Assembly: GCF_900155395.1 (NCBI RefSeq)
Contig: NZ_LT699722.1
Span: forward strand, 1 to 32,308
Length of the DNA stretch: 32,308 bases
Source of the DNA: Merdibacter massiliensis
Lineage (GTDB): Bacteria > Bacillota_I > Bacilli_A > Erysipelotrichales > Erysipelotrichaceae
Direction of reading: 5' to 3'
The notes under the pieces were generated by a model. It did not search any database and had not been told where the DNA came from. It saw only the letters and a program-made list of their open reading frames with translations. Below are positions 555 to 19,539 of the stretch, piece after piece (the stretch's first letter is position 1; each line of letters starts with the position of its first letter). Both the position numbers and the translations under genes were made by a program.

Positions 555-1543
555 TTCATCACGACCACCTGCATGCTCGATAGAATCGCAGCCATTTCCT
601 GCGCATCTAGATCTTCACTATAAATCGTATACTGCACGGAATCCATCACCGCATTCATCTGTGTACCGTCATATTGACCGATCATGCCAATCGAATCGAT
701 CAGATCTCCGCTCATGATCACTGTTTGTGTCGTATCTTCACTTTCTGCGATCTGTTCAACGATCGTAAAGCTTTTATCCCCGCTATATTCTAATATATGC
801 TGCAATGTTCCGTTGTTTTCAACAACGGAGCTGTTGGTCAGCGTTGCATCCATCGTTTCCATCGGAAGCAGCGGGAGATCTTCCTGCATCGCTCCTGTCG
901 CTGCAGTTTGTTTTTCTAATTGCTGCGGAACTGCAAAATCTTCTTTTTTCAGACCTGGTTCATAGTCTACTTTATGAAATACAAGTTTCAGTTGCGACAC
1001 ATGATCGTCATTAAATATTTCCAGATAGGAGATCTTTGCATCAGATGTGAATACCATCTCCTGCTGTGTAAAATTATGGTTATTCGGATAGGTGACTTTC
1101 GCACTTACTTGATACCCGTCTTTTGTTTTTTCCACCTGTGTTCCTTTTTCTTCCATGATCTCACTCATCGATTGCAGCAAATAAGGCTTTAAGGAATTGG
1201 TCGGCCAATTTCCCTCAAACTTAAAAATTTGATTTAATGATGGCGTAATGACGTAGACCCCATCCTCATTGCGAATAATTTCCTGTTCCTGATTCAGGTC
1301 TTTATCCGTCAAAGATACCTTAAAATACTCTTGGTCTTCTTCTTTTAAGTACTTCACATTGATCGCATAGCTTCGGATATCTTCCCCTTTCGTAAGTTCC
1401 ATGTCCCCTTCTAACAAATAGCTTTTCAAATTTGCTGTCGTCTCTTGAAATTGTTGTTCAAATGGTTTTTCTTTCAATAAGAGAAGCAAAGCTGCGACAA
1501 GCACAAGTGCACCAGCGATCAGAATGATTGCTTTCTTTTTCAT
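551..1543 (-). CDS. YdcC-like LolA-fold membrane-anchored protein
   Basis: The product has about 330 residues. It has one N-terminal hydrophobic helix (residues about 4-24) with no lipobox cysteine, then a beta-rich extracytoplasmic region resembling the LolA/YdcC sporulation-protein fold, with a YEPGLKKEDFAVP segment closing the first domain. A second domain of about 110 residues follows. The ATG at 1543 is chosen because AAAGGGAG lies 6 nt upstream; the longer frame to 1594 has no ribosome binding site. It overlaps mazF by 4 bases. In Bacillus, ydcC also lies in the alr-ndoAI-ndoA neighbourhood, which supports the call. Exact function is unknown; a role in envelope or lipoprotein handling is an inference. 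Confidence 0.65.
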   Translation of the reverse strand: MKKKAIILIAGALVLVAALLLLLKEKPFEQQFQETTANLKSYLLEGDMELTKGEDIRSYAINVKYLKEEDQEYFKVSLTDKDLNQEQEIIRNEDGVYVITPSLNQIFKFEGNWPTNSLKPYLLQSMSEIMEEKGTQVEKTKDGYQVSAKVTYPNNHNFTQQEMVFTSDAKISYLEIFNDDHVSQLKLVFHKVDYEPGLKKEDFAVPQQLEKQTAATGAMQEDLPLLPMETMDATLTNSSVVENNGTLQHILEYSGDKSFTIVEQIAESEDTTQTVIMSGDLIDSIGMIGQYDGTQMNAVMDSVQYTIYSEDLDAQEMAAILSSMQVVVMK

Positions 1544-1638
1544 TTTCGACTCCCTTTCTTTCATCCTAATGTATGTAAGACCAAGCTGAAACATGCATAT
1601 TCACTTGACTCATTCATACAATGTCATGGGGAGATATC

Positions 1639-1833
1639 ATGAAAAAAATCAAAATCATCGCTTTGCTGCTGCTTGTGTTATTTGCTATCGATCATATGTG
1701 CTATATCTTTTTCTCTTTTCCTTCCATTTATCACTATGCCACTTTACATCCAGCTTTCGAAAAATGGTATGCTTTGATGCTTGGCCTCGGCGCAATCATT
1801 TCATTATTATACCTGGGAAAAGAGGACACATAA
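1639..1833 (+). CDS. Small two-helix membrane protein
   Basis: This 64-residue protein starts at ATG 1639 with GGGGAG 6 nt upstream, which is better than the in-frame ATG at 1621. It has two hydrophobic segments (about residues 4-23 and 43-56) separated by an aromatic loop, and ends KEDT. It is transcribed divergently from the ydcC-like gene and ends in a hairpin terminator. No family is recognised. The ribosome binding site, the terminator and a hydrophobic coding pattern support it as a real gene. Confidence 0.6.
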   Translation: MKKIKIIALLLLVLFAIDHMCYIFFSFPSIYHYATLHPAFEKWYALMLGLGAIISLLYLGKEDT

Positions 1834-1865
1834 AAACAGCAGATATCATAAGATGCCTGCTGTTT
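1834..1865. terminator. Terminator between small membrane gene and copZ-like gene
   Basis: A 9-bp stem AAACAGCAG/CTGCTGTTT with a 14-nt loop begins immediately after the stop codon of the small membrane gene. T-rich sequence follows on the plus strand and an A-rich run precedes it, so it can serve both convergent genes. Confidence 0.6.
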
Positions 1866-1869
1866 CTTT

Positions 1870-2061
1870 TTATTTTACTGTATACCCAATATCGCCGATG
1901 ACGCCACGTGCTTTCATCACATCATCCTGTGTGCCTTCCACGATGACTGCCTTTCGTGGAAGATCCACTGTATACTTAACAGATGTTTCCGATAAAGCAC
2001 GATCAATTTTTGCGGCACAATGTTCACACGCCATATCTTCAACTAAAATAATTGTCTGCAT
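1870..2061 (-). CDS. CopZ-like heavy-metal-associated (HMA) domain protein
   Basis: This 63-residue single-domain protein has the metal-binding motif MACEHC (CxxC) at residues 10-15, in a ferredoxin-like beta-alpha-beta fold of normal HMA length. It probably carries Cu(I) or a related soft metal. AGAGGTG lies 7 nt before the ATG, and an extended -10 box lies at 2084-2092. No P-type ATPase or CsoR repressor is in the window, so the partner is unknown. The H between the cysteines (CEHC) is common in CopZ proteins. Confidence 0.85.
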   Translation of the reverse strand: MQTIILVEDMACEHCAAKIDRALSETSVKYTVDLPRKAVIVEGTQDDVMKARGVIGDIGYTVK

Positions 2062-2083
2062 CTAATTTCACCTCTTTGTTCCT

Positions 2084-2092
2084 ATTATAGCA
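2084..2092 (-). promoter_or_regulatory. Extended -10 promoter of the copZ-like gene
   Basis: On the minus strand TGC precedes a perfect TATAAT, about 23 bases before the start codon. No convincing -35 box is seen at 16-18 bp, as is usual for extended -10 promoters. Confidence 0.5.
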
Positions 2093-2115
2093 CTCTGTTT
2101 TGACAAATGCTATTT

Positions 2116-2835
2116 TTATGCAATGATCGTACCTGTTTCTTTCGTGAAGGTGCCGCGCAGATGGATCTGTATATTTTTTTCTTTCGCATACTGTACACAG
2201 CGGTCATGCAATACACGTACTTTCATATTTAACATTTCATCATATGTCAGATGATCATAGCGTTTTGCGAGCGGAGACAGCTTTGGATCTATATCATACA
2301 CCCCGTCCACATCTGTATAAATATCTACTTGTTTCGTTCCCAGCATATCTGCAAATAAGACAGCGCTGAAATCACTGCCGCCTCTTCCTAACGTCGTTAC
2401 ATCTCCGCATGGCGCCTGTGCAATAAAGCCGCTGGCTACTGCCACATCATGATGAGCCAATGTCTGTTTGATACAGCGCGGCGAAAGAGAAAGCACATTT
2501 GCATATTCATAGTGATAATCCGTCAAGATCCCATTTTTATGAAACGGAAGTGCATAGGCCGCTATCCCCATATTCAGCAATTCGCTGCATACGATCAAAG
2601 CAGACAGCTGTTCGCCCATGGAGACCAGCCGTGCCTTTTCTTCCTTTGTCAATCGTGAAGAACCCATGCTTAACAATGTATCTGTCGCATAAGGACTAGG
2701 ATATCGCCCCATTGCCGATACGACCACCAATACTTTTGCCTGTTTTAACTCTTCGATAATGTGTGAATATGCTTGTTTTCTTGCTTTTTCATCACTTAAG
2801 GAAGTGCCTCCAAACTTCATGATCTTGATATTCAT
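2116..2835 (-). CDS. Aspartokinase catalytic domain protein lacking ACT domains
   Basis: This amino-acid kinase has 239 residues. It has the N-terminal KFGGTS motif (residues 7-12), the GRGGSDFSA substrate/nucleotide loop (about 150-158) and the TDVDGVYDIDP motif (about 174-184), all typical of aspartokinases, which make aspartyl phosphate for lysine, threonine and methionine synthesis. Normal enzymes are 400 residues or more because of two C-terminal ACT domains that sense lysine or threonine. Here the protein ends with the kinase core, so no such feedback domain exists. The last residues (HLRGTFTKETGTIIA) match the natural end of the core, so this is not a frameshift truncation. It may be an unregulated isoform or a related amino-acid kinase. 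Confidence 0.8.
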   Translation of the reverse strand: MNIKIMKFGGTSLSDEKARKQAYSHIIEELKQAKVLVVVSAMGRYPSPYATDTLLSMGSSRLTKEEKARLVSMGEQLSALIVCSELLNMGIAAYALPFHKNGILTDYHYEYANVLSLSPRCIKQTLAHHDVAVASGFIAQAPCGDVTTLGRGGSDFSAVLFADMLGTKQVDIYTDVDGVYDIDPKLSPLAKRYDHLTYDEMLNMKVRVLHDRCVQYAKEKNIQIHLRGTFTKETGTIIA

Positions 2836-2873
2836 ATCTCCACCCCACAGTCCTTATACCCTATGCAGAAACA

Positions 2874-2905
2874 AGAAAAAAGGATAGGCATTTACATGTC
2901 TATCC
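2874..2905 (-). terminator. Terminator of the mutY-Nudix operon
   Basis: A 9-bp stem with one G-U pair (arms 2882-2890 and 2897-2905) is followed by TTTTTT on the minus strand. The upstream arm covers the last codons and stop of the Nudix gene. Confidence 0.7.
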
Positions 2906-3463
2906 AATCTGAGAGGCCTTGTTGTTCAATTTTTCATATACCGGCAGCATCTCTTGTTCTTTCACTATTTTTGCTATCTGAGCAGCCGGAAACCATTTAG
3001 CTCCTTTCACTTCATCTTCTTTGTGAGACAAAGGAGCAAGCGGATCGCCATAGAACAAATAGGTAACATTGATATGCAGATGTGCACTGACAAAACGATC
3101 ATTTTTCCAATGCCGCGGCACCCGCAACACATCAATGGCTAGTGGTGTTGGATCAGCCAGCTGTAATGCTTCTATTCCTGTCTCTTCTTTCCCTTCGCGC
3201 TGAGCTACCTGCCACAGGTTTGCATCCCCATCACAGTGCCCGCCGCTCCATCCCCAGGAATCATAAATACGATGATACACGAGCAGCACTTGTTTTCGAT
3301 CCTTGGACATGATCCATGGCGACGCACATAAATGAATGATTGGATTCTCTCTTGTCAATAAATTATGAAAAGAAGAAAATGCCTGCAAGATCAGCTGCCG
3401 GTCTACTTGTTCTTGTTGATTATATGGGATATAGTTTTCAAACAGCTCTTTTAACTCTTGCAT
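2900..3463 (-). CDS. Nudix hydrolase
   Basis: This 187-residue protein has a Nudix box at about residues 77-100, GGHCDGDANLW followed by REGKEETGI. Nudix enzymes hydrolyse nucleoside diphosphates linked to another group. The REx2EExG core that binds the metal is intact, but the glutamate expected seven positions after the first glycine is an alanine next to an aspartate, and the U after RE is glycine. The gene begins 2 bp after the mutY stop, with AAGGAAA upstream, so the two form an operon. MutY neighbours suggest a role in nucleotide-pool or DNA repair, but residues outside the box are not those of classic MutT and the substrate cannot be read. Confidence 0.85.
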   Translation of the reverse strand: MQELKELFENYIPYNQQEQVDRQLILQAFSSFHNLLTRENPIIHLCASPWIMSKDRKQVLLVYHRIYDSWGWSGGHCDGDANLWQVAQREGKEETGIEALQLADPTPLAIDVLRVPRHWKNDRFVSAHLHINVTYLFYGDPLAPLSHKEDEVKGAKWFPAAQIAKIVKEQEMLPVYEKLNNKASQIG

Positions 3464-3465
3464 AT

Positions 3466-4533
3466 TTATTTTCCTTCTTTCATTTTGATCCAGGTGCAGG
3501 CAGCATCATAAAAAGTCCGATAAGCAGTAGGGATCGCATAATTGTCTTCGATTTCTTCTATGCTGTGATAATGGTGATCTGTATCCATTGTCTCAATCAG
3601 AAAGGCATGCATATGCCATTCGACATGTGAAAATATATGTACATGGGGATGTAAAGCGATGATCTGCTGCGACTGCGGATACATTTCTACAATTTGTTTT
3701 TGATCCAGCTTTCCTTCCTTCATCGGAAAACCATATAAATTAGCTAACAATCCTTTGGAAGGCCGCTGAACTAATGCGATCCTATTTTTGTAAACAAATA
3801 CCAATACCGTATATTCCTCCACCCGCCGTGCTTTTTTCTCTCCTTTTTTCGGAAATTGATCTTCTACTCCCCTTCGATGCGCTTTGCATTGCAAAGAAAG
3901 CGGACAACGTTCACAATCCGGTGTTTTATTCGGCATACAGATCAAAGCGCCTAATTCCATGATTGCTTGATTGAAATCACCGGCATCCTCTGCATTTGGC
4001 AGAAATGCACTTACATAGTCTCGATAATGTTTTTTCGTTATTTCTTTGCTGACATCTTCCTCATTTGCCAGTATTCGTGAAAAAACGCGCAATACGTTGC
4101 CATCCACTGCACAAACACGCTCTTGATACGCAATAGAGGCAATTGCACCGGCAGTATAGGGGCCAATGCCTGGCAACGTACACAATTGAGCATACGTTTT
4201 CGGCAGCTCTCCATCATACTGTTCCACACATGCCTGTGCGCATTTTTTCATATTCCGCACGCGGTTATAATATCCTAATCCTTCCCAAAGCTTATGCAAC
4301 AGATCATCGTCAACAAGCGCCAGGTCTCTTAGAGTCGGCAAAACAGCAAGAAAGCGTTCATAATAAGGAATTACCGCTTCTACTCTTGTTTGTTGCAGCA
4401 TGATCTCGCTTACCCAAGTACGATACGCACTCACTTGTCTTCTCCAAGGCAGATCGCGATGTTCTTTGCGATACCATCTCAACAAATTTTGCTGAACCTG
4501 TTGGATTTCTTCTTGTTTCATTGCTATTTCCAT
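3466..4533 (-). CDS. mutY: Adenine DNA glycosylase MutY
   Basis: MutY removes adenine mispaired with 8-oxoguanine. The protein (355 residues from ATG 4533) shows the catalytic glutamate in WVSEIMLQQT, the helix-hairpin-helix LPGIGPYTAGAIASIAY, the catalytic aspartate in VDGNVLRVFSR and a four-cysteine iron-sulfur cluster loop. A C-terminal NUDIX-like 8-oxoG recognition domain follows (about 230-350). The cysteine spacing is C-x7-C-x2-C-x5-C, one residue longer in the first gap than the usual x6. The ATG at 4533 is preferred because AAGGAG lies 11 nt upstream; the longer frame opens with a GTG that overlaps that ribosome binding site. It is co-transcribed with the Nudix gene. Confidence 0.95.
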   Translation of the reverse strand: MEIAMKQEEIQQVQQNLLRWYRKEHRDLPWRRQVSAYRTWVSEIMLQQTRVEAVIPYYERFLAVLPTLRDLALVDDDLLHKLWEGLGYYNRVRNMKKCAQACVEQYDGELPKTYAQLCTLPGIGPYTAGAIASIAYQERVCAVDGNVLRVFSRILANEEDVSKEITKKHYRDYVSAFLPNAEDAGDFNQAIMELGALICMPNKTPDCERCPLSLQCKAHRRGVEDQFPKKGEKKARRVEEYTVLVFVYKNRIALVQRPSKGLLANLYGFPMKEGKLDQKQIVEMYPQSQQIIALHPHVHIFSHVEWHMHAFLIETMDTDHHYHSIEEIEDNYAIPTAYRTFYDAACTWIKMKEGK

Positions 4534-4575
4534 CTGCTGCAGCACTCCTTTTACAAATCGTTTTCATTATAAGTA

Positions 4576-4606
4576 AAAAGTGCCGTAAACGCAAACACGG
4601 CACTTT
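4576..4606 (-). terminator. Terminator of the hydrolase-murF-ddl operon
   Basis: A perfect 10-bp stem AAAGTGCCGT/ACGGCACTTT with an 11-nt loop lies just after the ddl stop, followed by TTTTTAC on the minus strand. Confidence 0.8.
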
Positions 4607-4611
4607 CCATC

Positions 4612-5757
4612 TTACATGATTTTCTTTCCTATTTTCTCTGGAGCTTCTTGCAAAACATTGCTTTCATAGCTGGTGATATGCTTTCCTCTTTTACGATAAG
4701 CCTGTATGCCATCTTGAATGATCAGATCTAACAATTGTGAAAATCCAACACCTTCCCATTCCCACAAATAACAAGATAAAGAGCCAGGAATGGTATTTAA
4801 TTCATTGACATACAGTTTTTCCTGTCCTTTATCATACAAATAATCAATGCGTGCCACACCCTGAATTTCAAACAATCGGGCAATTGCTACTGAACACTTT
4901 TGTACTTCTTCCACCAGTTTTTCTTCCCGGACCCACAAACGTTTTTGATTTATACTCTGTTTTTCCGTTTTGCCGATATATTTTTCGTCATAGCCAAGCA
5001 AATCACCATGATGGATCACCTCTTCTACCGCACTGCTGCGATATCCATAAGGTGTATGCAAAATGGCACAGTTTAATTCACGCATATCTTCCAAACATTC
5101 TTCTACCACGACATGTTCGCCATAATTCCAGGCCTGTTGAATGGCCTGTTCACATTCCGATGCAGAATTTACTTTTTCAATGCCGATGCTGGAACCAAGC
5201 AGTGCCGGTTTTACCATCAATGGATAACGCAAAGAAGCTATCTTCTTTGCGCAAAGTTCTGTTTCCTCTCCTTCCCGTATCTCAATAAAGGGGACAACCG
5301 GGAAGCCTGCCTCTTTTAATAAGCGTTTCTGTATTCCTTTATCTTGGCCGATCGCAGAACAAAGAAGATCGCTCTCGCAAAATGGAAGCTGCAGCATGCG
5401 GCAGAAACCAGCTGCACTGCCATCTTCTCCATTGATTCCATGAAACAAAGGCAATACCACATCAAAAGGAATCGCAAAACCTAGCCAATTTGCTTGATTC
5501 TTTACTAACATCGGCTGTCCTTTTCTTCGTTCAATATGCACAGGATGCAGCTTTTCACATAAGCTCTGCAAGTCACGATAGTTTGCCATATGCCGCAACG
5601 CTTGTCCATGATAAAACTGCCCCTGTTTGCTCACATAACATGGAATGACTTCATATTTTTGTGTATCCACATTTTCCATCACCATCAATGCTGTCAAGAT
5701 ACTGATTTCATGTTCTACACTGTTTCCGCCAAACATACACAATACACGTATCTTCAT
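4612..5757 (-). CDS. ddl: D-alanine--D-alanine ligase
   Basis: Ddl joins two D-alanines for the peptidoglycan stem peptide. The 381-residue protein has the N-terminal FGGNSVEHEISI motif, the LFHGINGEDGS motif, the ATP-grasp lid (LMVKPALLGSSIGIEKV), the omega-loop region GYDEKYIG and the metal-binding segment VNELNTIPG. It is slightly longer than typical Ddl because of a C-terminal tail of about 30 residues (RGKHITSYESNVLQEAPEK and on). GGTGAG lies 4-9 nt upstream of the ATG. It is 17 bp downstream of the murF-like gene, whose substrate it makes. Whether it prefers D-lactate or D-serine as second substrate cannot be judged with certainty; nothing obvious suggests a Van-type enzyme. Confidence 0.94.
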   Translation of the reverse strand: MKIRVLCMFGGNSVEHEISILTALMVMENVDTQKYEVIPCYVSKQGQFYHGQALRHMANYRDLQSLCEKLHPVHIERRKGQPMLVKNQANWLGFAIPFDVVLPLFHGINGEDGSAAGFCRMLQLPFCESDLLCSAIGQDKGIQKRLLKEAGFPVVPFIEIREGEETELCAKKIASLRYPLMVKPALLGSSIGIEKVNSASECEQAIQQAWNYGEHVVVEECLEDMRELNCAILHTPYGYRSSAVEEVIHHGDLLGYDEKYIGKTEKQSINQKRLWVREEKLVEEVQKCSVAIARLFEIQGVARIDYLYDKGQEKLYVNELNTIPGSLSCYLWEWEGVGFSQLLDLIIQDGIQAYRKRGKHITSYESNVLQEAPEKIGKKIM

Positions 5758-5774
5758 TTTCTCACCAGTCCATT

Positions 5775-7358
5775 CTATGCAATCCCTTTTATTTCATGAT
5801 TAAAAATATCAGGAATGTCATTTTCGATCAAAATTGTTTTCTTTCGAGAAGTCAAACTCTTTGCGAATGTAATTGCCTCCTGCATCGTGCCGCAAACATG
5901 GATCTGCTCTTCTGGAAACTGCTGTTCGATCAAAGAACCATAAATTTCTTTGGTCTGCTCCTTTCCTACCAATACGACTTCATCTGCACTTTTCGCAATT
6001 TCTTCCCCAAAAGCACGGCTGTGCGATTGCTGCAATTCGCCTAACTCCATAAAACCAGGCGTAATGATTACACGCCAATTCGGCATTTCTTTTAATACCC
6101 TGCATGCTGCCAGTGCGCCTTGCAGATTGGAATTATATGCATCATCGATCAAAATATCCGCACCCATTTTTTTCATTTCTAACCGGTGTTCAACAAACGG
6201 CAAATGTTCCACCGCCTGTTGCAGATCAGCCATCGGCACATGTAAGATCCTTGCCAAAGCAATCGCTGCTGTTATATTCAGAATATTGCATTCGCCTAGC
6301 AGCCGGGTATGGAACGGATAACATTTATGACCAATCTCTAAAACAAAATGTGTGCCCTCTTCTCCCATATTTGCAGAAATTATTCGCACATTTGCCTTTT
6401 TTGAATACCCATAAGTGTAAATGCTTGCTGTTGTATGCAATGGATAGGAACAGATAAACGGGTTATCCACATTCAGGATGCCGATGCCCTCCGGAGGCAA
6501 CATTTCTACCATCTTCATCTTTTCTTCCACAATTGCTTCCTGCGAGCCAAACGTCTTCAAATGCTGGGGTCCGATTGCTGTTACAATTGTGATCTTGGGT
6601 TGAACAAACGAAAGCAGCTCTGCTAATTCCCCGCTGTGATCGCTTCCCATTTCACAAAGAAACACTTCATGCAACGGATCCAATTCTTCACGTATCGTTC
6701 TGGTTATGCCCATTCGATTATTATAGGAATGCGGTGTCTTCAGCGTATAATAATGATCTTTTAATAATGCATATGCAATATATTTCACACTTGTCTTGCC
6801 ATAGCTGCCGCTGATGCCTACCCGGATCATTTGCGGACAGGCATTTAAACGTGCTTTTGCATCTTGTACATAACTATTTTGGATCATATGTTCCATCGGC
6901 AGCACCACATAAGATGCTATCGGCAGCAAGATCCATGGTATCATCCACAGCAGCGGCAAACAGCAAATATAGAGTTCATAACTCAACGTATAACGCATCC
7001 CGATAATGGTGATTCCAGTCAGCAGAAGCAGACAGATACTAAAACGGCACATCCGGTTTGTAAAACGTAACATGAATGATCGCTTCTTATCTTTTAGACG
7101 CTGGAACTGCACATACAGATAAATAAGCGTAAAACAAAAAACAGAGGGACTGCGCGCTTCTTCCACCTTTAAAAACAAAAGCAATAAAAAAGGCAGTAAG
7201 AGCTGGATCCGTTTCCAGACACGCTGAATGGAAAATTCATCCGCAATCCAGTTTCGATAACGATCCAAATGATAATGACATTGTTGAAACACCCCTAAGG
7301 AAGCATACAGATCATGCCCCTGCATTGCCAAGACACCAATCAGTTCTAACCACAACAT
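5775..7358 (-). CDS. MurF-type Mur ligase with N-terminal membrane domain
   Basis: This 527-residue protein joins a membrane region to a Mur ligase. Residues about 45-180 hold three to four hydrophobic helices. The ligase follows, with the ATP-binding loop GSYGKTS (K188), the EMGSDHSGELAEL motif in the position of MurF's E.G..H.GEI, LGECNILN and DDAYNSN. MurF adds D-Ala-D-Ala to the UDP-MurNAc-tripeptide in the cytoplasm, and classic MurF is soluble with a different N-terminal substrate domain. The ATG at 7358 has GGGGGTGA 5-12 nt upstream and overlaps the hydrolase gene by 13 bases; the longer frame to 7493 has none. Position next to ddl supports D-Ala-D-Ala ligation, but the replaced N-terminus leaves the acceptor uncertain. 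Confidence 0.85.
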   Translation of the reverse strand: MLWLELIGVLAMQGHDLYASLGVFQQCHYHLDRYRNWIADEFSIQRVWKRIQLLLPFLLLLFLKVEEARSPSVFCFTLIYLYVQFQRLKDKKRSFMLRFTNRMCRFSICLLLLTGITIIGMRYTLSYELYICCLPLLWMIPWILLPIASYVVLPMEHMIQNSYVQDAKARLNACPQMIRVGISGSYGKTSVKYIAYALLKDHYYTLKTPHSYNNRMGITRTIREELDPLHEVFLCEMGSDHSGELAELLSFVQPKITIVTAIGPQHLKTFGSQEAIVEEKMKMVEMLPPEGIGILNVDNPFICSYPLHTTASIYTYGYSKKANVRIISANMGEEGTHFVLEIGHKCYPFHTRLLGECNILNITAAIALARILHVPMADLQQAVEHLPFVEHRLEMKKMGADILIDDAYNSNLQGALAACRVLKEMPNWRVIITPGFMELGELQQSHSRAFGEEIAKSADEVVLVGKEQTKEIYGSLIEQQFPEEQIHVCGTMQEAITFAKSLTSRKKTILIENDIPDIFNHEIKGIA

Positions 7359-8068
7359 CTGCTCACCCCCAAAAACTGCTGGATATCTTCTATAAAGCGA
7401 AACCCTTGATGATAATATGCAAAATGATCTTCTCCCCGATAAACGATCAGTTTTGCCTGCGGCAATAATGACTCCATCTTCCTGGCCATCCAAAGCGGCG
7501 TCTGCTGATCTTCACTGCCCCAAACCAACAATACCGGACAGTGAATATCAGGCAATAATGAAGACAGATCTTCATTTACCGCTTGTACCAATACCTTTTT
7601 TAATGCAGGATCTGCATTTCGATAGTCACTGCTCCCAAAGTGAATGGGCAACTTCAGCTTTTGATTGATGCGATACGCCTTCTGTTTTGCACGCTTCCAT
7701 AGCGATAAAGGTGCCCGTAATCCTGCTGCCCCCGTTAAAACCATTTTTTTCACTGGAAATCTTGCCGCATAACGGATTGCGATACGTGCTCCAAACGAAT
7801 GTGCAATCAAAATGGGATTCTCTATTTCATACCTGTTTAAGAGTTCAAAAAGACAGGTAACATAATCATCCATACCCCATCCTTCCCGCAATGGAATACT
7901 TTCTCCAAAACCTGGAAGATCCAGATTTACCACACGATAAGATTCCTGCAGCTGACATTGCAATAAGCGCATCATCGAAAGATCTTGTCCCCAGCCATGC
8001 AGCAACACAACACCCTGTCCTTCCCCACTACACTCCACATGAAGATGTACACCATCCATTTCAACCAT
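7346..8068 (-). CDS. Alpha/beta hydrolase
   Basis: This 240-residue protein has the standard alpha/beta hydrolase marks: the oxyanion-hole segment LLHGWGQD (residues 23-30), the nucleophile elbow HSFGA, the acid in VWGSEDQQTP and the histidine in GEDHFAYYH. AGGAGG-like GGGAGGAAG precedes the ATG. It is the first gene of the operon with the membrane MurF and ddl and overlaps murF by 13 bases. The substrate cannot be told from sequence; envelope-related ester or amide hydrolysis is only a guess from the neighbours. Confidence 0.85.
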   Translation of the reverse strand: MVEMDGVHLHVECSGEGQGVVLLHGWGQDLSMMRLLQCQLQESYRVVNLDLPGFGESIPLREGWGMDDYVTCLFELLNRYEIENPILIAHSFGARIAIRYAARFPVKKMVLTGAAGLRAPLSLWKRAKQKAYRINQKLKLPIHFGSSDYRNADPALKKVLVQAVNEDLSSLLPDIHCPVLLVWGSEDQQTPLWMARKMESLLPQAKLIVYRGEDHFAYYHQGFRFIEDIQQFLGVSRCCG

Positions 8069-8293
8069 TGACTTCCTCCCATGAAATCATATGCAAAGAA
8101 TCGACAAGAGATGACATTCCAACATCTTCCTATAATAAAAAGGTCATAAACAGGAATCCCATTCATGACATAAATAGATATTTAACTAAATACTAAACAA
8201 CCTCTACATGATTGATTATAACTTCTCTAAGGTCATATGATATAAAAATACGATTTTTAAGATCATAAAGTTCATATTCAAACAAAAACAATA
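8069..8293. other. AT-rich intergenic region at the distal end of the CRISPR array
   Basis: This stretch holds the upstream region of the hydrolase operon and the trailer of the array. No ORF with a ribosome binding site is seen. A short repeat-like string (TTCAAACAAAAACAATA, 8278-8294) lies directly beside the last repeat and could be a decayed remnant, but AT-richness makes chance likely. No clear terminator for the array is visible. Confidence 0.4.
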
Positions 8294-9444
8294 GTTCAAA
8301 AATACAATAAAATACAATCCTTAAGAACGACGATCATCATAAATCGTTGTATCGCTTGGTTCAAAAAAAACAATAAAATACAATCCTTAAGAACCGATAA
8401 AATGTATTATGTAATATATGTGAGGTTCAAAAAATACAATAAAATACAATCCTTAAGAACACTCGTTGTAAATCCTTTACCAATGCGCTGTTCAAAAAAT
8501 ACAATAAAATACAATCCTTAAGAACGTGTGTTCTCTACTTTTTTAGGTTCTGCTAGTTCAAAAAATACAATAAAATACAATCCTTAAGAACAACGAATCA
8601 ACAAACAAAATCGAAAACAACGTTCAAAAAATACAATAAAATACAATCCTTAAGAACAACCCGTCATAGTTTTTAGCTCCGTTGAAGTTCAAAAAATACA
8701 ATAAAATACAATCCTTAAGAACTGATGGTCAACAGCGCTCAAACGCACTGGCGTTCAAAAAATACAATAAAATACAATCCTTAAGAACTCTTGGCAATGT
8801 ACTTAAATAAAAAACGCGTTCAAAAAATACAATAAAATACAATCCTTAAGAACCACAGTGGAGAAAGCAACAGTTTCGAGCAGTTCAAAAAATACAATAA
8901 AATACAATCCTTAAGAACTGTTTTGTGGAAGATTCCGACGTGCTTGTTGTTCAAAAAATACAATAAAATACAATCCTTAAGAACTAGACGCTTTACGCTG
9001 ATAATGCACTCATGTTCAAAAAATACAATAAAATACAATCCTTAAGAACCAGCACCACGTATAAATCTATGATATCTGTCGTTCAAAAAATACAATAAAA
9101 TACAATCCTTAAGAACAGCATATCAATTTGCTACAACTACCGTTGTGTTCAAAAAATACAATAAAATACAATCCTTAAGAACACTCTGCTTTCAAACCAA
9201 CGTCTGTACAATGTTCAAAAAATACAATAAAATACAATCCTTAAGAACGTAAACTGTTTTTTTAAAAAAAGAGGAATTGTTCAAAAAATACAATAAAATA
9301 CAATCCTTAAGAACCATGCCCAACCTATTATATTACAGGCGAAGTTCAAAAAATACAATAAAATACAATCCTTAAGAACGATAACTACACAACAAATACC
9401 GTTCAACCGTTCAAAAAATACAATAAAATACAATCCTTAAGAAC
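8294..9444 (-). CRISPR. Type II-A CRISPR array, 18 repeats and 17 spacers
   Basis: Repeats of 36 bp start at 8294 (35 bp), 8359, 8425, 8490, 8556, 8622, 8687, 8753, 8818, 8883, 8949, 9014, 9081, 9147, 9213, 9279, 9344 and 9409. Spacer lengths from low to high coordinate are 30,30,29,30,30,29,30,29,29,30,29,31,30,30,30,29,29. In crRNA sense (minus) the repeat starts GTTCTTAAGGATTG and ends TTTTTTGAAC. The two repeats at the 8294 end are altered (one A deleted; one T changed to A), while those next to csn2 are perfect, so the leader end is at 9444 and transcription runs on the minus strand like the cas genes. This agrees with the anti-repeat at 11641-11676. Spacer targets are unknown. Confidence 0.99.
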
Positions 9445-9454
9445 CGTCATTAGA

Positions 9455-9463
9455 ATTATAACA
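9455..9463 (-). promoter_or_regulatory. Extended -10 promoter for the CRISPR array
   Basis: On the minus strand TGT directly precedes a perfect TATAAT (9455-9460), between the csn2 stop and the first repeat. The predicted transcription start is near 9448, about 4 nt before the repeat. No -35 box is seen at 16-18 bp. The gap between csn2 and the array is only 29 bp, so this is nearly the whole leader. Confidence 0.6.
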
Positions 9464-9473
9464 TAAAAAGCTT

Positions 9474-10358
9474 TTATTTATCGGTTATTTGAGTATTATC
9501 TTTGTCAAACATTAAATAAAAAGTAGTTGTATGATCATGTAATTGTGTATAATATTCCATTATTTTTTCATTTTGTAACTCAATATATTGCTGTACGAAT
9601 GGGGTAAACATATAAGAAATGAAAGGAAATTCAGATAATTCATAATGAATGCATTCCAAAAAATCTTTATTTGACATAGAAATAAGTGAACATGATTCTA
9701 GTTCATCATAGTTACCCTTTTCAAAGCAATTATCTATTATAAACAACAATCCATCTTTAGCATATTCTTTCATCCACTCTAATACCTTTTGTGTAACAGG
9801 AAAATCGATATAAATCAAACTATTCTTTTCTCTATTTAAATATATCAGCAAATTATACAGTGCCATATAGAAAGTATCTGCTGTTTTTGTATCAATATCA
9901 ATTGACAGCATTTCAACTAGTTTACTGATATCAAAATCGATAGAGTTAATATCTATAAAATCATTTGTATATTTTGACAGCAATTGTTTTAATTTGATCA
10001 TACCTAAATCAGTTAATAAGTCATGCATATCTTCGCGAATGCGATCTATAGAAGTAAAGTATTCCATATTACTTTCTATGATCTTTGTGAATTCTGTATT
10101 TAATAAAGACTTTGCGCTGAAATGGAAATTCTGCTCAATGCTTGTTTTAGCATATGGAAGATAAATGAATTCTAATTCATCATACAGAATCTGTACACCA
10201 TCATCATTAAAGACTTTGCAAGCATTCTTTTTCTTTTTCCCAAAATAATTAGACAAACAACTAATAAAGTTTTCTTTATATTCATTGTCAACTAAGAAAT
10301 TCAAGTTTCTTTTTGTCGGAAAACAATAAGTTTCTTCTTCATATATCACTTTCATCAT
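9474..10358 (-). CDS. csn2: Csn2-like adaptation protein of type II-A CRISPR
   Basis: Csn2 forms DNA-encircling rings and takes part in spacer acquisition with Cas1, Cas2 and Cas9. This 294-residue protein lies in the csn2 position, after cas2 and before the array. It has an acidic, alpha-helical composition and a segment SLIYIDFPV then DGLLFIIDN resembling the beta-strands of the Csn2 core. The length lies between the short (about 220) and long (about 315-350) Csn2 families, and I see no strong match to either, so the call leans on context. GGAGGG precedes two tandem ATGs (10358, 10355); the second has better spacing. It overlaps the end of cas2 by about 20 bases. Confidence 0.75.
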   Translation of the reverse strand: MMKVIYEEETYCFPTKRNLNFLVDNEYKENFISCLSNYFGKKKKNACKVFNDDGVQILYDELEFIYLPYAKTSIEQNFHFSAKSLLNTEFTKIIESNMEYFTSIDRIREDMHDLLTDLGMIKLKQLLSKYTNDFIDINSIDFDISKLVEMLSIDIDTKTADTFYMALYNLLIYLNREKNSLIYIDFPVTQKVLEWMKEYAKDGLLFIIDNCFEKGNYDELESCSLISMSNKDFLECIHYELSEFPFISYMFTPFVQQYIELQNEKIMEYYTQLHDHTTTFYLMFDKDNTQITDK

Positions 10359-10674
10359 TCAACCCTCCAATCATGAATGTTAAGCTAGTTGTTGTAATTT
10401 GTTCTTGCAAAGAATAACTTCCATTTATATTCGATATATTTTGAAATTGTCGTTCTGTTACGATTAAAAAACGAATATCACCTTGTGGCGGTGCATGAAT
10501 AATTAAACGCCGTTCAGCAGTATGAACAGAATCACTATTGATACATAGTTTCGAATAAACGGAATATTGTAAACGAATAAATCCTTCACTTTTCAGATAC
10601 TTTATAAAATCCCGATACCATTTTAAATGAAGCTTTGTTTCTGTCGGTAAATCAAAAAGGACAATCAATCGCAT
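10339..10674 (-). CDS. cas2: CRISPR-associated endonuclease Cas2
   Basis: Cas2 bridges two Cas1 dimers in the spacer integration complex. From ATG 10674 the protein has 111 residues, the normal length, and starts MRLIVLFDLPTET like other type II Cas2 proteins, with the conserved aspartate at residue 8. It keeps the LQYSVYSK segment and the RFLIVTERQF strand. This start lies 4 nt after the cas1 stop, with GGAGAAG 8-12 nt upstream, inside the cas1 end; the longer frame to 10740 adds 22 residues without homology or a ribosome binding site. It overlaps csn2 at its 3' end. Confidence 0.95.
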   Translation of the reverse strand: MRLIVLFDLPTETKLHLKWYRDFIKYLKSEGFIRLQYSVYSKLCINSDSVHTAERRLIIHAPPQGDIRFLIVTERQFQNISNINGSYSLQEQITTTSLTFMIGGLNDESDI

Positions 10675-10678
10675 AAAT

Positions 10679-11581
10679 CTATTCTTCTCCATATAATTGA
10701 ATACCTTGTTTAAGGTCCATTGTAAGAAATGCCTCTTCACCTGTATTTAAATAAGCGATATATGTATCAATAATTCTTTCAATTGCCATATTTAAGCGAA
10801 GCCATTTACCGTCTACGAAAATCTTTGCTAATGGTAAGTGAATCAATTCTTTTTTATGTTTTACTGTAAATACATCTTTGATATATAAATATACCCATGC
10901 ATCTACAATTACTCGAAATGGTTCTATAAAATCATATGTTAAGTTAAAAGGATTTGACTCTCCCATATGGTGAATACCTAATTGTGTTAACATCCCTCTA
11001 GCTGCAATACATTTCGATATATAGCTGGCAATGATTTTATAGCCGTAATTTAATGCATAATTAGTAGCTGTCTGTTCTTCTCTAGTAAATTCTTTTCCAA
11101 ACAAAATAGAGAAATATAAGCGAGCACTGACTGCTTCACGATTAGTTTGATCATCATTATACACATTTTCTCTGTATTTTTTTAACATGATACTATTTTC
11201 ATCTTGAATATTCAGAAGCTGCAAGATATCGATTTCAGATTGGATCTTTTGTTCTATTATTTTTTTCCATAGATGTTTTTTTCTTGTAACTTTCCATTGT
11301 ATCTGTTTATTTAACTGTTTAAACACTAAAGAATGGGTGTTATATGGTTGAAAAATGCCAATTGGATCATTCTTGGAATCACAGATGATCACATTAATAT
11401 TTTTTTCTATTAGTTTTGCTAATAATGGAATAGTAATCGTTGTTTTGTCATGTGAAAAAATGACTGTATTGATGTCATTTAATGGAATATTTTGATAGTT
11501 ATGATCTACAGTTATTTTCATTCTATTTAATGTTAATGAGACAATACACTCAGAACCGATAATGACGGTTTTCCAGCCCAT
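10679..11581 (-). CDS. cas1: CRISPR-associated endonuclease/integrase Cas1
   Basis: Cas1 catalyses spacer integration. From ATG 11581 the protein has 300 residues and starts MGWKTVIIGSECIVSL, as in type II Cas1 proteins. It shows the conserved E..Y.S.LFGKEFTR region, NYGYKIIASYISKCIAARG, the H in LGIHHMGESNPFNLTYDFIEPFR with its acidic metal ligands, and the D in VVDAWVY. The frame extends to a GTG at 11605, which would place the start inside the tracrRNA terminator; the ATG is preferred by homology. No Shine-Dalgarno precedes the ATG, which is unusual for this window. cas2 follows 4 nt after its stop. Confidence 0.95.
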   Translation of the reverse strand: MGWKTVIIGSECIVSLTLNRMKITVDHNYQNIPLNDINTVIFSHDKTTITIPLLAKLIEKNINVIICDSKNDPIGIFQPYNTHSLVFKQLNKQIQWKVTRKKHLWKKIIEQKIQSEIDILQLLNIQDENSIMLKKYRENVYNDDQTNREAVSARLYFSILFGKEFTREEQTATNYALNYGYKIIASYISKCIAARGMLTQLGIHHMGESNPFNLTYDFIEPFRVIVDAWVYLYIKDVFTVKHKKELIHLPLAKIFVDGKWLRLNMAIERIIDTYIAYLNTGEEAFLTMDLKQGIQLYGEE

Positions 11582-11591
11582 ATTGACTATG

Positions 11592-11616
11592 AAAAAGGCA
11601 GCCACAATTAGCTGCC
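11592..11616 (-). terminator. tracrRNA terminator, just upstream of cas1
   Basis: A 6-bp GC-rich stem GGCAGC/GCTGCC with an 8-nt loop (11597-11616) is followed by TTTTT on the minus strand. The T run ends 10 nt before the cas1 ATG, so cas1-cas2-csn2 expression from upstream needs read-through. Confidence 0.85.
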
Positions 11617-11676
11617 TCTGATAGTCTACGAATCAATCTTATTCTTCCAGATTGTATTCTATTGTATTTTTTGACA
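11592..11676 (-). ncRNA. tracrRNA of the type II-A system
   Basis: On the minus strand 11676-11641 matches the antisense of the CRISPR repeat at about 29 of 36 positions. It pairs with the crRNA repeat as a 6-bp lower stem (GUUCUU with AAGAAU, one G-U), a 3x3 internal loop (AAG against UGG) and a long upper stem starting GAUUGUAUU. The tail AAGAUUGAUUCGUAGACUAUC is laid out like the nexus region of known tracrRNAs, and a terminator hairpin GGCAGC/GCTGCC with T5 closes it at 11592. The anti-repeat begins 4 nt after the cas9 stop codon. Predicted length is about 85 nt. The pairing fixes array transcription to the minus strand. Confidence 0.92.
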
Positions 11677-11679
11677 ATA

Positions 11680-14600
11680 TTATTCTACCATGGATTTACA
11701 TATTTTCCAAGAGAAAGCTTCTTTTTTAATTTTTGAATATTTTTGTACAGCTCCTTTCGGACCATCGATCAGTAGAGTGCCTTTTTCATTATACGCATAT
11801 CGAATTCCCAGTATGCTGCTTTTGATTTTGATATAACGTGCTTCCTCTCCTATTGCACTTGCAGTTGGACAAAATTGACCAAATATCATTGGCCATGTAC
11901 ATGGGCGATTGACGACCAGATTTAAAAAAGCCGCTTTTTCTAAAAAAGTTTGGAAGTTTGTTTCTTTTTCAAGAAATTGTACGATGCCTTTATAATAGCG
12001 CTCTTTCTGCTGTACCTCCATCAAATTGTCCACACAGAAATTGATCATTTCATGAATGTCTACATCTTGAAATTTCTTTTGTCCGGATGGATGTATATGC
12101 GCTAGTTTAAAATCAAAGTGAATCGAGAGTGCTTTGCGGAAGAACGCCACCTGTTCATAAATTGCATTGTAGCTGAATTGATAAATGTGTTTCAATTCTA
12201 ACTTTTTCTTTGCTATCGATCCAATATTAAATTTCTGTATGACTTGATTTTGGGTATCGTAAATCAGATCATTTTTAAATGCACGGATACAGAAATAATA
12301 TTCTTTCAGGTTTCCATTTTCATCTAACAAATCAGTTTCTTTATAGTAATCCCGAATCAACCGAATATATTTTTCTTTATCAATCGTACCATCGCTGTGA
12401 ATGATGACTTTCGGTATATGAATTGCTACATGTTTCTTTTTCCCTTTTTTTGTCGTGTATTTATAAAAATCAACTGCTGCACAATTAATAGAGGAAAAAG
12501 CATGAACGGCATTATTCACTCCTAAAATGCTCAATGGAGAACGTGGATCTATATCGGATGGTTTTAAGATCGTTGCATTGAAAAATTCCCCTTTATAATT
12601 TTTTTCTGCTTTGATCGAATACAACGGTGTCGTTGACTTGATCTGGGATACCAGAGAATCTGGATGTGCAGGATAATCACCATACGTCTTCCAATAAGCA
12701 ATCTCAATAAATGTATTCAATTTGGACTGCTCGCTTTTTTCTTTCTGTTTTGGATCCGACTCCGCCTGCATCATCTGAAGAAAGTTTTGATAGTTTTTCT
12801 GATTTCCCCGTTGATCATAATTTGGATAGTATGTAGACAATACTTGATCAGCAATGCTTACAATAGCAGCGTCATGTGCATGATGCTGGCTGCCAATGTC
12901 ACGATTTTTCTTAAAGCGCAATGCCTGACGGTACACAGAAGTAAATGCAGAACGCAAAGACACGATATGTGTCGGATAATCATTCACTGCATTATATGCA
13001 CGTAATATTGCCATAAGTTCGCGAATGATATAGCGTGTATCTACTAAATTACGGTTGATAAAGCCGAAAACTTCTTCACTAGAAGATAGCATCAGTTGTT
13101 TTACTTTCTTTTCCGATATCATTCGTAAATCGAACAACTCATTTACGCGGCGAATAAAGTCGCTGGAAGTAATCACTTTACCTGCTTTATTTTTAACTAG
13201 ATCTTGTTCGATATACTCCAATGGTACACGATCTCCTTTTGCACTATTGTATACCTTATGGATCAATATCATATTATCCATTGAATTATCGCCAAAACCT
13301 CTAGGCAATACATGATCCATTTCATAATCCTGTAAATGATGCAAATCAATTGGATCGCCGGAAATCATATCCAGCCCGTTTTGTCGAATATACAATTCAA
13401 TTTTTCTTTTATTCGAAGAAAGATAAGAACTTACTTCTTCCCAATCTTCTATTGCGTGTGCATATAATTTTTTTCCTGGCTGCTTCAATTGTTCTTCTAA
13501 ATAATGATAACAACGTTTCATTTCATCAAAATGTTTTGCAGGCACTTCTCCTTGACGAGAACTGTCTTTCAGATCTCTTGCGGTTTCTATTACTACACGG
13601 GCAGGCACACCATATGTATGAATAATTTCCTCATATAACTTGAAACATTCATTTAATGCACGAATGACTGGGCGGGAAATAGGAATAAACGGTTTTCCGT
13701 TTTCAATCAATAAATCAATAGAAAGGTGCGGATTCTTATTTAACTTCTCCATATATTTATTTGCAGCAAAGTTCAAAGGTTTGCCGTCTTGATCTTTGGC
13801 TTGAGAAATCAAGGTCATCTGTTCATTGGTGTATTCCGCACAATTATCATTAAACAACGCATCGATCAAACATTGTCCGCCCTCATTTATTGGTGTCTCC
13901 AATAAGAATTTCTTAGAAAAAGCATAGAAACCATTTGATTTCAACTTACTTAATTTTTTCGCACTTCTTTCATCAAAACCCATTTCTTGCTGGAAGTAAA
14001 TTGACTTAGAAGTTTCTTCGTCAAACAGATTAATATTTAAAATGATATTCTCTAACTGCTCGATTCGTTCACTCTTTTCAAATAATTCTGTAATCGAAGT
14101 AATGGCTAACTGTGGCAATATTGAACAGATAGAATGATATAAAGTATAACATGAGCGGAATTTTTGACTTCCGCTGTTCTTTCTTGTTCCAAATGTTTTT
14201 AACCCAAGAAGAGCAGCCACCTCTTGATAGTTTACCTTGGTATTTTTTAAAAACAACTGATCAAATATCAATAACTTGTCTTCCAGCGTTAAATAGTAAC
14301 GATTTTCATTTTTATCCACTGCCTGCAGAACGTTCAGCTCATTTAATATATGAAAAGTCTCAGCAATAAAAGACCCTTTAGGAAGAGCAAATTCCTTCGG
14401 CAAATAAGTACAGTGCGATATCATTGCAAGCTTCCAGCGGCGGATACTTTCATATTCATCAACTGCATCTTTACATGAATAAGCATAACTATAACGAAAA
14501 TTCCCTTTTTTTACCAGCCAGGCATTTTTTGCATTTTCTGATAACGGACCGATAAAGTATGGTATACGAGCCTGCATGATGGTGATACAGACTTCAATAA

Positions 14601-15660
14601 AAGAATCCGTCAGTATCGTTGGGTAATAGCTCTGCTGCTTTCTTAGAATAGCACGTGCTTCTTTTACATATAAACCATTTGGATATTTGTTTTCAATATT
14701 TTTAATTACCCTTAACTTTTTCCCTGGTGAAGATACCTTCATCTTGCTTTGAATTGATTTCACAGCTTCTTTATAAGCAGCTGCATCGCTTTGCTCTAAA
14801 GCATAGATTTCTTTCACATGATTTAATTTATCGACATCCAGTTCACAAATATATTGATATTGTTGCAATACTTTTGATACTTCGATCATATCGTGCAATT
14901 CAATCACGCACTCTAAAAAATCGTTTGTCTCCTCTTTTTTTATTAAAGTTAAAATATCCACATTTCCTGATGTATCTTCTAATGCAACAGACTCACTGAT
15001 TTTGGAAAGATTTGCCTTATAGCCCGATAGCAAATACAACAATTGCTCTAAAGCTTCCTCATCTAGATTTTCTTCGTTTAATAACTGTTTTATTTCTTTC
15101 TTTGGGATTTTTCCATCTGTAAACAAGCGTTGCAAGATCTTCTCTTCAAATGCTTTCTGATTTTCAATCTCCACATAAGCAGAAACTGCATCATAGAAAC
15201 GTTCTTTAAACAAAGCAAATGTAATACCATCTTGAGAGTCAAAATTAACATTCTCCATTAAAAAATGACCGCGCGTACCGCAAATATTGTAAAGTGCTAA
15301 TAGCAATTCACGAAAAGACACTTGTTCCTGCAAAGCACGTTTGCGAAGATGATAGATCGTCTCATCTTTAGGCCTTGTTATCGTTGAGGTATCAGTTGTA
15401 AAGCTTAGAAACCCTGGTTGCATGATTTCTTCTTTCATTATGACATGAAAGTCAACAAATGCTTTTTTTAATTGTTCCTTTCTCCATTTTTTGCGTCGCA
15501 AAGTTCTTCTTGCCTGTCGATTGTTCCTGGCATCAGCAGCAGGTTTTGCCTCTTCAAATAAATGGACTCCCAAATCAACTAAATGATTGGTCTTCGTATC
15601 AATCACGCTCCAACCAATCGAAGTAATTCCGATGTCCATCCCCAATGTAAATTGATCCAT
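11680..15660 (-). CDS. cas9: CRISPR-associated endonuclease Cas9, type II-A
   Basis: Cas9 is the RNA-guided nuclease of the system. The 1326-residue protein is in the type II-A size range. RuvC-I: GMDIGITSIGWSVID with D9. Arginine-rich bridge helix: about residues 43-65 (ARNNRQARRTLRRKKWRKEQ). RuvC-II: VVIETARDL with E692. HNH: YEMDHVLPRGFGDNSMDN with H783, N796 and N805 in NSAKGD. RuvC-III: GSQHHAHDAAIV with H927 and D930. All catalytic residues are present, so the enzyme should be active on both strands. A PAM-interacting region follows to the C-terminus (KICKSMVE). AAAGGGGAGGAAG precedes the ATG, and an extended -10 box is at 15691-15699. The tracrRNA anti-repeat begins 4 nt after the stop. 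Confidence 0.99.
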   Translation of the reverse strand: MDQFTLGMDIGITSIGWSVIDTKTNHLVDLGVHLFEEAKPAADARNNRQARRTLRRKKWRKEQLKKAFVDFHVIMKEEIMQPGFLSFTTDTSTITRPKDETIYHLRKRALQEQVSFRELLLALYNICGTRGHFLMENVNFDSQDGITFALFKERFYDAVSAYVEIENQKAFEEKILQRLFTDGKIPKKEIKQLLNEENLDEEALEQLLYLLSGYKANLSKISESVALEDTSGNVDILTLIKKEETNDFLECVIELHDMIEVSKVLQQYQYICELDVDKLNHVKEIYALEQSDAAAYKEAVKSIQSKMKVSSPGKKLRVIKNIENKYPNGLYVKEARAILRKQQSYYPTILTDSFIEVCITIMQARIPYFIGPLSENAKNAWLVKKGNFRYSYAYSCKDAVDEYESIRRWKLAMISHCTYLPKEFALPKGSFIAETFHILNELNVLQAVDKNENRYYLTLEDKLLIFDQLFLKNTKVNYQEVAALLGLKTFGTRKNSGSQKFRSCYTLYHSICSILPQLAITSITELFEKSERIEQLENIILNINLFDEETSKSIYFQQEMGFDERSAKKLSKLKSNGFYAFSKKFLLETPINEGGQCLIDALFNDNCAEYTNEQMTLISQAKDQDGKPLNFAANKYMEKLNKNPHLSIDLLIENGKPFIPISRPVIRALNECFKLYEEIIHTYGVPARVVIETARDLKDSSRQGEVPAKHFDEMKRCYHYLEEQLKQPGKKLYAHAIEDWEEVSSYLSSNKRKIELYIRQNGLDMISGDPIDLHHLQDYEMDHVLPRGFGDNSMDNMILIHKVYNSAKGDRVPLEYIEQDLVKNKAGKVITSSDFIRRVNELFDLRMISEKKVKQLMLSSSEEVFGFINRNLVDTRYIIRELMAILRAYNAVNDYPTHIVSLRSAFTSVYRQALRFKKNRDIGSQHHAHDAAIVSIADQVLSTYYPNYDQRGNQKNYQNFLQMMQAESDPKQKEKSEQSKLNTFIEIAYWKTYGDYPAHPDSLVSQIKSTTPLYSIKAEKNYKGEFFNATILKPSDIDPRSPLSILGVNNAVHAFSSINCAAVDFYKYTTKKGKKKHVAIHIPKVIIHSDGTIDKEKYIRLIRDYYKETDLLDENGNLKEYYFCIRAFKNDLIYDTQNQVIQKFNIGSIAKKKLELKHIYQFSYNAIYEQVAFFRKALSIHFDFKLAHIHPSGQKKFQDVDIHEMINFCVDNLMEVQQKERYYKGIVQFLEKETNFQTFLEKAAFLNLVVNRPCTWPMIFGQFCPTASAIGEEARYIKIKSSILGIRYAYNEKGTLLIDGPKGAVQKYSKIKKEAFSWKICKSMVE
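11682..11710 (-). promoter_or_regulatory. Candidate tracrRNA promoter inside the 3' end of cas9
   Basis: On the minus strand TTGGAA (11705-11710) and TAGAAT (11682-11687) are separated by exactly 17 bp. The predicted start is near 11675, the first base of the anti-repeat. The boxes overlap the last codons and stop codon of cas9. Confidence 0.5.
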
Positions 15661-18282: not shown

Positions 18283-19539
18283 ATGGCAATGAAAATCGTT
18301 CGTTTCAACTGCTGTGGCATGGATGTTCACAAAGATCTGGTCGTCGCTACTATTGGTATCACCGATAGACAGTCGAACATCACAGAATATTTCCAACAAT
18401 CTTTTTCCACTTTAAACTCGGACCTATATCGTTTAAAGGATTGGCTGAATTCTTATCACTGTTGTGATGTCTGCATGGAATCTACCGGTAAATACTGGAT
18501 CCCTATCTTCAACATTCTTGAAGGTGAGATCAATGTCCATTTAACTCATCCCAAGTATGTCAAAGCCATCAAAGGCAAAAAAACTGATAAGAAAGATTCC
18601 AAATGGATCTGTGATCTCTTCAAACATGATCTGATCAAATTCTCGTTTATCCCTCCAAAAGAAATCCGAGAACTGCGTGAGATCGCCCGTTACCGATACA
18701 AGCTGGTCTGCATGCGTTCTTCAGAACGGAATCGTTATCAGAACTGTATGACCGTTTCCAATATCGGATTAGCTTCTGTTGTCTCCGATCCTTTTGGCAA
18801 GACAGCTTCCAATATCATGAAAGAAGTCATGAAGCCAAACGTGATTGATGATGACAAGATCTTAAAACTCATTCACAAAAATTGTAAGAACAAAGATAAG
18901 ATACTAGACTCCCTTCACGGCTATCACATCGAAGCGGATCAACGATTCAAGATGGAAAAATCATTGAATCATATGGAGTACTTGGATCAACTCATCAATT
19001 CATGTGAAGCAGAATTGGTCAAGCGGGCTTATCCTTTACGCGAATCTTTCCAGCATATCACACAAATAAAAGGAATTAGTTCCTTATCGGCCATTCTGAT
19101 CATCTCTGAAATAGGAATCGATATGTCTCAGTTTGAATCCGACAAACAACTTGTCAGTTGGGCTGGACTTTCTCCTGCCAACAACGAAAGTGCCGGCAAG
19201 AAAAAGTCAGTTCGTATCTCCAAAGCTGGACAATATCTCAAACCACTGCTTGTCCAATGTGCTTTATCGACCATCAAAGATAAGACATCTTATTTTGGAA
19301 GAAAGTATTCCAATATCAAGAAACGACGTGGTCACAAGAAAGCCATCATTGCGATCGCACGCATGATGTTGGTCAGTATCTATCACATGATCCTAACAGG
19401 CGAAGTATTTCAACCAACGGATTATGAATCCTTCATGAATCCACGATCCGATACCAAACAATCACTAACAGTTGAAGAAGCATTAAACTTTTTGAAACAA
19501 TCCGGCATTGATATATCTTCTATTCAAATCAACTTATAA
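18283..19539 (+). CDS. IS110-family transposase (RNA-guided DEDD recombinase)
   Basis: The 418-residue protein has the N-terminal RuvC-like DEDD domain: D14 in GMDVHKD, E66 in MESTGKYW, D102 and D105 in TDKKDSKW. A coiled-coil middle follows, then the C-terminal Tnp domain with GISSLSAILIISEIG (helix-hairpin-helix-like), VSWAGLSPANNESAGK and the candidate catalytic serine S313 in VRISKAGQYLK. IS110 recombinases use a bridge RNA to choose target and donor. All motif residues are present and the frame is intact, so the element may be active. The ribosome binding site lies in a hairpin arm. Confidence 0.96.
   Translation: MAMKIVRFNCCGMDVHKDLVVATIGITDRQSNITEYFQQSFSTLNSDLYRLKDWLNSYHCCDVCMESTGKYWIPIFNILEGEINVHLTHPKYVKAIKGKKTDKKDSKWICDLFKHDLIKFSFIPPKEIRELREIARYRYKLVCMRSSERNRYQNCMTVSNIGLASVVSDPFGKTASNIMKEVMKPNVIDDDKILKLIHKNCKNKDKILDSLHGYHIEADQRFKMEKSLNHMEYLDQLINSCEAELVKRAYPLRESFQHITQIKGISSLSAILIISEIGIDMSQFESDKQLVSWAGLSPANNESAGKKKSVRISKAGQYLKPLLVQCALSTIKDKTSYFGRKYSNIKKRRGHKKAIIAIARMMLVSIYHMILTGEVFQPTDYESFMNPRSDTKQSLTVEEALNFLKQSGIDISSIQINL

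Follow-up and report, generated by a model that had tools for sequence, protein, structure and literature searches.

In Streptococcus pyogenes the tracrRNA gene lies upstream of cas9. Faecalibaculum rodentium belongs to the same bacterial family as Merdibacter massiliensis, the host of the locus described here. Its type II-A enzyme, FrCas9, uses a 71-nt tracrRNA without poly-T, which, unlike ours, is encoded on the strand opposite to cas9 and upstream of it (PMC8931148). Three described systems, likened to the present locus by published gene order, have the tracrRNA between cas9 and cas1. In the type II-A system of Lactobacillus rhamnosus GG (LrCas9) the order cas9–tracrRNA–cas1 has RNA-seq support and the locus has csn2, but the tracrRNA is 138 bp long as against the ~84 nt predicted here (PMC10541446). 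The same placement is reported for Enterococcus faecalis CRISPR3 (PMC4894674) and for the type II-A system of Bifidobacterium merycicum, where the tracrRNA differs in being reported on the minus strand and in having a double-stemmed nexus (PMC4521832). In the sgRNAs of Clade V Cas9 proteins the duplex is followed only by a stem resembling a nexus and by one larger fold, and they have been likened to that of Staphylococcus aureus Cas9 (PMC7606464); the likeness to our tracrRNA is one of fold pattern. A sequence-only reading of this DNA had taken the location between cas9 and cas1 to be unusual, but it is published for three genera and also occurs in loci with ~1100-aa Cas9 proteins of the same family (see below). 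The tracrRNA described here is thus a further example of a known arrangement, both its placement and its size being already known. Its most notable feature appears to be a putative promoter in the final codons of cas9, present in every relative checked.

Organization of the CRISPR-Cas locus

The window, i.e. the whole 32,308-nt stretch of DNA that was analysed, comes from a 2.47 Mb genome in 23 contigs (99.85% complete) in which the genes for cas9, cas1 and RNase III are each present in one copy. All parts of the locus lie on the minus strand, in the order cas9, tracrRNA, cas1, cas2, a gene in the csn2 position and the array (Table 1). The array, cas9, cas1 and cas2 fall within one locus, as is required for subtype II-A, and the locus is a single-copy type II-A-like CRISPR-Cas9 system. 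Among named relatives, the closest Cas9 proteins come from an uncultured Erysipelotrichaceae bacterium (77% identical) and Candidatus Merdibacter merdigallinarum (71%). A search of solved structures gave no close relative of this Cas9, the best matches extending over no more than about half of its length.

Table 1. Positions in the window of the tracrRNA, its parts and the surrounding CRISPR-Cas features.
Feature	Position	Strand	Remarks
cas9	11680..15660	-	1326 aa; TIGR01865, E 1e-177; RuvC and HNH motifs intact; stop codon 11682-11680
Promoter-like TTGGAA-17-TAGAAT	11682..11710	-	TG before the −10; end of the −10 falls within the stop codon of cas9
Predicted tracrRNA	11592..11675	-	~84 nt: anti-repeat, weak nexus, terminal hairpin, U tract
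Anti-repeat	11641..11676	-	matches the repeat's antisense at 29/36 positions; duplex with the repeat −38.6 kcal/mol
Nexus	11630..11638	-	putative; GATTGATTC; 2 canonical pairs at the base; weak support, read off alignments
Terminal hairpin	11597..11616	-	GGCAGCTAATTGTGGCTGCC; GGCAGC-loop-GCTGCC; compensatory changes in orthologs
T5 tract, intrinsic terminator	11592..11596	-	directly behind the hairpin
cas1	10679..11581	-	from conserved ATG (MGWKT), 15 nt past the tracrRNA hairpin; alternative in-frame start GTG at 11605
cas2	10339..10740	-	TIGR01573
Gene in csn2 position	9474..10358	-	294-aa protein
CRISPR array	8293..9444	-	18 repeats GTTCTTAAGGATTGTATTTTATTGTATTTTTTGAAC, 17 spacers of 29-31 nt

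The anti-repeat and its cognate repeat

The antisense of the CRISPR repeat claimed by the sequence-only reading was borne out at 29 of 36 positions, compared with 22 of 36 for the runner-up among the window's 36-mers outside the array, and it does begin at the fourth nucleotide after the cas9 stop codon, as had been stated. When G-U pairs are counted, 32 of the 36 positions pair with the repeat. A second, better anti-repeat elsewhere in the genome would have spoken against this assignment; the genome-wide search for one found none, the other significant matches being array repeats only. An Rfam search of the window gave no match at the gathering threshold, and those below it were chance matches only.

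The repeats differ among eight distinct loci of this Cas9 lineage, and within this set the anti-repeat of each locus is the best partner of its own repeat (8/8 in rows and in columns). The observed pairing total is reached by one of the 40,320 permutations, namely the true assignment, a figure that is a description and not a strict P value because related loci are not independent. The cognate duplexes lie 8.8-12.8 sd below shuffles. Covariance folding of the crRNA:tracrRNA pair, which had been proposed as a check, was carried out with RNAalifold on an alignment of repeat–linker–tracrRNA chimeras; the duplex and the terminal hairpin were recovered with 39 pairs, 18 of them changed on both sides. 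This structure was used for the covariance model described below, and two inner helices in it form no part of our claim. Since pairing is cognate in 8/8 loci and stem changes are compensated, selection is acting on the element in its role as a guide-RNA scaffold. As stray copies of a repeat might conceivably occur close to a CRISPR locus, one could regard the anti-repeat as a decayed or stray copy without function, yet this is extremely unlikely: in the eight distinct loci the anti-repeats co-vary with their own repeats and the stems change by compensation, and both position and promoter-like site are conserved. We conclude with high confidence that 11675-11592 on the minus strand is the tracrRNA of this CRISPR-Cas9 system. 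A well-supported tracrRNA and repeat pair is thereby gained for a Cas9 lineage without a close relative of solved structure, and a guide RNA for this Cas9 is therefore easy to build and test.

Occurrence in related genomes

Cas9 proteins of the same lineage (47-77% identical) were found in 15 of 273 genomes of the family, the window's own included, and relatives were compared where the 3' end of cas9 is not cut by a contig end. An anti-repeat and hairpin are present in a short cas9–cas1 gap in L052, L053, L056-L060 and L062; in L010 the contig ends 22 nt into the anti-repeat. The same tracrRNA lies between cas9 and cas1 in the Erysipelotrichaceae genomes where this region is readable, ten in number, so that the orthologous cas9–anti-repeat–cas1 order, for which the sequence-only reading had proposed a search, does exist in relatives within the family. 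A covariance model built from nine loci matches 10 of the 273 family genomes, once each. Nine of these matches are the training loci themselves, inside the cas9–cas1 gap, the window (match at 11590-11674, E 1.2e-10) being among them. The tenth, in genome G055, is outside the training set (E 2e-12); it is flanked by cas1 on one side and by a displaced 3' end of cas9 on the other.

The G055 locus (L079, G055:C1:330500-348000) carries a type I restriction-modification island (HsdM, HsdS, HsdR) at ~870-10230 that separates the 3' end of cas9 from the tracrRNA; the island also encodes a protein weakly matching an insertion-sequence zinc ribbon. The last cas9-like codons, with TTGGCA-17-TAAAAT, stay on the tracrRNA, and cas1, cas2 and the array follow. 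As the Cas9 of G055 is broken near residue 730, this locus may be decaying.

Three further loci of the same family (L093-L095, with ~1100-aa Cas9 proteins) likewise have the anti-repeat 3' of the cas9 stop codon. The HNH/RuvC regions of these proteins are only ~30% identical. In most of the larger Cas9 loci of the order the anti-repeat is upstream of cas9 and on the opposite strand.

The tracrRNA tail

The GC hairpin followed by T5 that had been noted is present, and the tail, counted from the end of the anti-repeat, measures 44 nt to the end of the hairpin and 49 nt with T5, in agreement with the earlier estimate of about 49 nt with one clear terminal hairpin. What did not hold is the description of this scaffold as very compact or unusually short: the S. 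pyogenes tail, counted likewise from a published template, is 46 nt, and the FrCas9 tracrRNA is 71 nt long. Nor is a single hairpin after the nexus a novelty, as this has already been published for a Cas9 clade (PMC7606464). Neither its length nor its number of hairpins sets this scaffold apart, because its tail has about the length of the S. pyogenes one, the tracrRNA of FrCas9 is 71 nt and a nexus with one fold is published. The S. pyogenes tracrRNA resembles that described here, in which the nexus is a putative one, in having a short nexus followed by ...UAUCA, but after the nexus it has two small hairpins where ours has one larger hairpin.

Across loci the putative nexus can be read by eye as a short GA..UC-type stem with 2-4 pairs, and RNAalifold calls no conserved pairs there. 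The terminal hairpin is intact by eye in all eight loci, indels misaligning part of it. Hairpin and T tract together have the make-up of a Rho-independent-type terminator; a pattern scan did not list the hairpin, probably because the stem extends into the T run. The hairpin loop ATTGTG, or a close variant, is kept in orthologs despite a varying stem, and this conserved loop is perhaps read by Cas9. A TGAT/ATCA stem in the minimum free energy fold of the window's tail was dropped, being absent from orthologs.

A promoter-like site in the last codons of cas9

The TTGGAA-17-TAGAAT site that the sequence-only reading had placed over the last cas9 codons, with a start near the anti-repeat, is present and matches the consensus at 9 of 12 positions, with a predicted transcription start at ~11675, 7 nt past the −10. 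By itself such a site is weak evidence because shuffled DNA has as many (39 in the region compared with 40.8 in shuffles), and it is conservation that appears to give it weight. In 10/10 loci, the window included, the site at the cas9 stop codon is the best or tied best when −400 to +60 is scored. The −10 ends 4-7 nt before the anti-repeat in these loci, with −35/−10 spacings of 16-17 nt. A conserved FSW motif of Cas9 partly explains the TGG of the −35 but not the −10. In L053 and L060 the cas9 reading frame is a few codons shorter at its end (the query match contains one in-frame TAA), with the −10 still present. The distant Cas9s of L093-L095 carry TTGAAA-17-TATAAT or TATACT across the cas9 stop codon. 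A promoter in cas9 codons would thus recur in two distant Cas9 lineages, which is less expected, and a tracrRNA promoter embedded at the end of cas9 seems to be a recurring arrangement. As the site is kept in relatives, a role as a promoter is likely.

Transcription, processing and loading into Cas9 are presumed here from established type II biology. An RNA of ~84 nt would start near 11675, from the putative promoter overlapping the end of cas9, and would stop at the hairpin–T5 terminator; its 36-nt anti-repeat would pair with each repeat of the pre-crRNA, the host RNase III, for which the gene is present, would cut the repeat:anti-repeat duplex and Cas9 would be guided by the resulting crRNA:tracrRNA pair. 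Transcripts reading through from cas9 could also contribute to the tracrRNA pool. It is also conceivable that the tracrRNA lacks a separate promoter; it would then be the 3' UTR of the cas9 transcript, set free by RNase III once crRNA has paired with it, and the hairpin would simply be the terminator of cas9. The tracrRNA is indeed on the same strand as cas9, 4 nt past its stop codon and with a terminator directly behind, and a 9/12 match is of a kind equally common in shuffles. We nevertheless consider this rather improbable, as the promoter-like site occurs in the same place with 16-17-nt spacing in ten scored loci, is found also in a distant Cas9 lineage, and in G055 has stayed on the tracrRNA though the restriction-modification island splits off cas9. 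Both routes are possible, with a separate tracrRNA promoter more likely, judging from these sequence comparisons, than release from the cas9 mRNA alone. In S. pyogenes type II-A a long, self-targeting form of tracrRNA (tracr-L) represses the cas promoter (PMC11417352). That a similar long form is also made here is very unlikely, since the 400 nt on the upstream side hold no segment resembling the repeat (11/20 at best) and no 11-mer is shared, on either strand, with the 150 nt before cas9.

The terminator and the start of cas1

In ten loci the tracrRNA hairpin ends 11-29 nt before the start of cas1, and in all ten at most three of six Shine-Dalgarno letters precede it. Clear Shine-Dalgarno sequences are found in the window at cas9 and at the gene in the csn2 position. 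A tracrRNA terminator abutting a cas1 start that lacks a Shine-Dalgarno sequence is a less expected arrangement. Because the hairpin adjoins a cas1 start without a good Shine-Dalgarno sequence, low expression of cas1 is suggested. AT-rich leaders can initiate translation without a Shine-Dalgarno sequence. A bolder reading of the same sequences would make the tracrRNA gene a brake on spacer acquisition, with cas1, cas2 and the gene in the csn2 position expressed by readthrough only and cas1 translated weakly. We regard this as unlikely; if true, a high ratio of Cas9 to adaptation proteins would be fixed, with the tracrRNA promoter hidden in cas9 codons.

The csn2-position gene, the array and flanking DNA

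Orthologs 28-38% identical to the csn2-position protein occupy the same place in other loci. The protein is without a match to any Pfam, NCBIfam or PADLOC model, Csn2 models included, and a nine-member profile of it did not match solved (PDB) Csn2 structures. It is possibly an undescribed Csn2 subfamily. A single-sequence fold of the protein was set aside (pLDDT 37). Four spacer-target searches gave no credible target, which does not imply that targets are absent: one blastn of the array against phages returned nothing better than E 1, and three exact spacer 24-mers had zero matches in IMG/VR. The array leader (9445-9474) is tightly packed against the gene in the csn2 position. The last repeat (8328-8293, minus strand) is degenerate, its T run being one base shorter, and marks the leader-distal end. 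An IS110-family transposase gene (E 9e-73) lies on the plus strand at 18283-19539, ~2.6 kb from the start of cas9.
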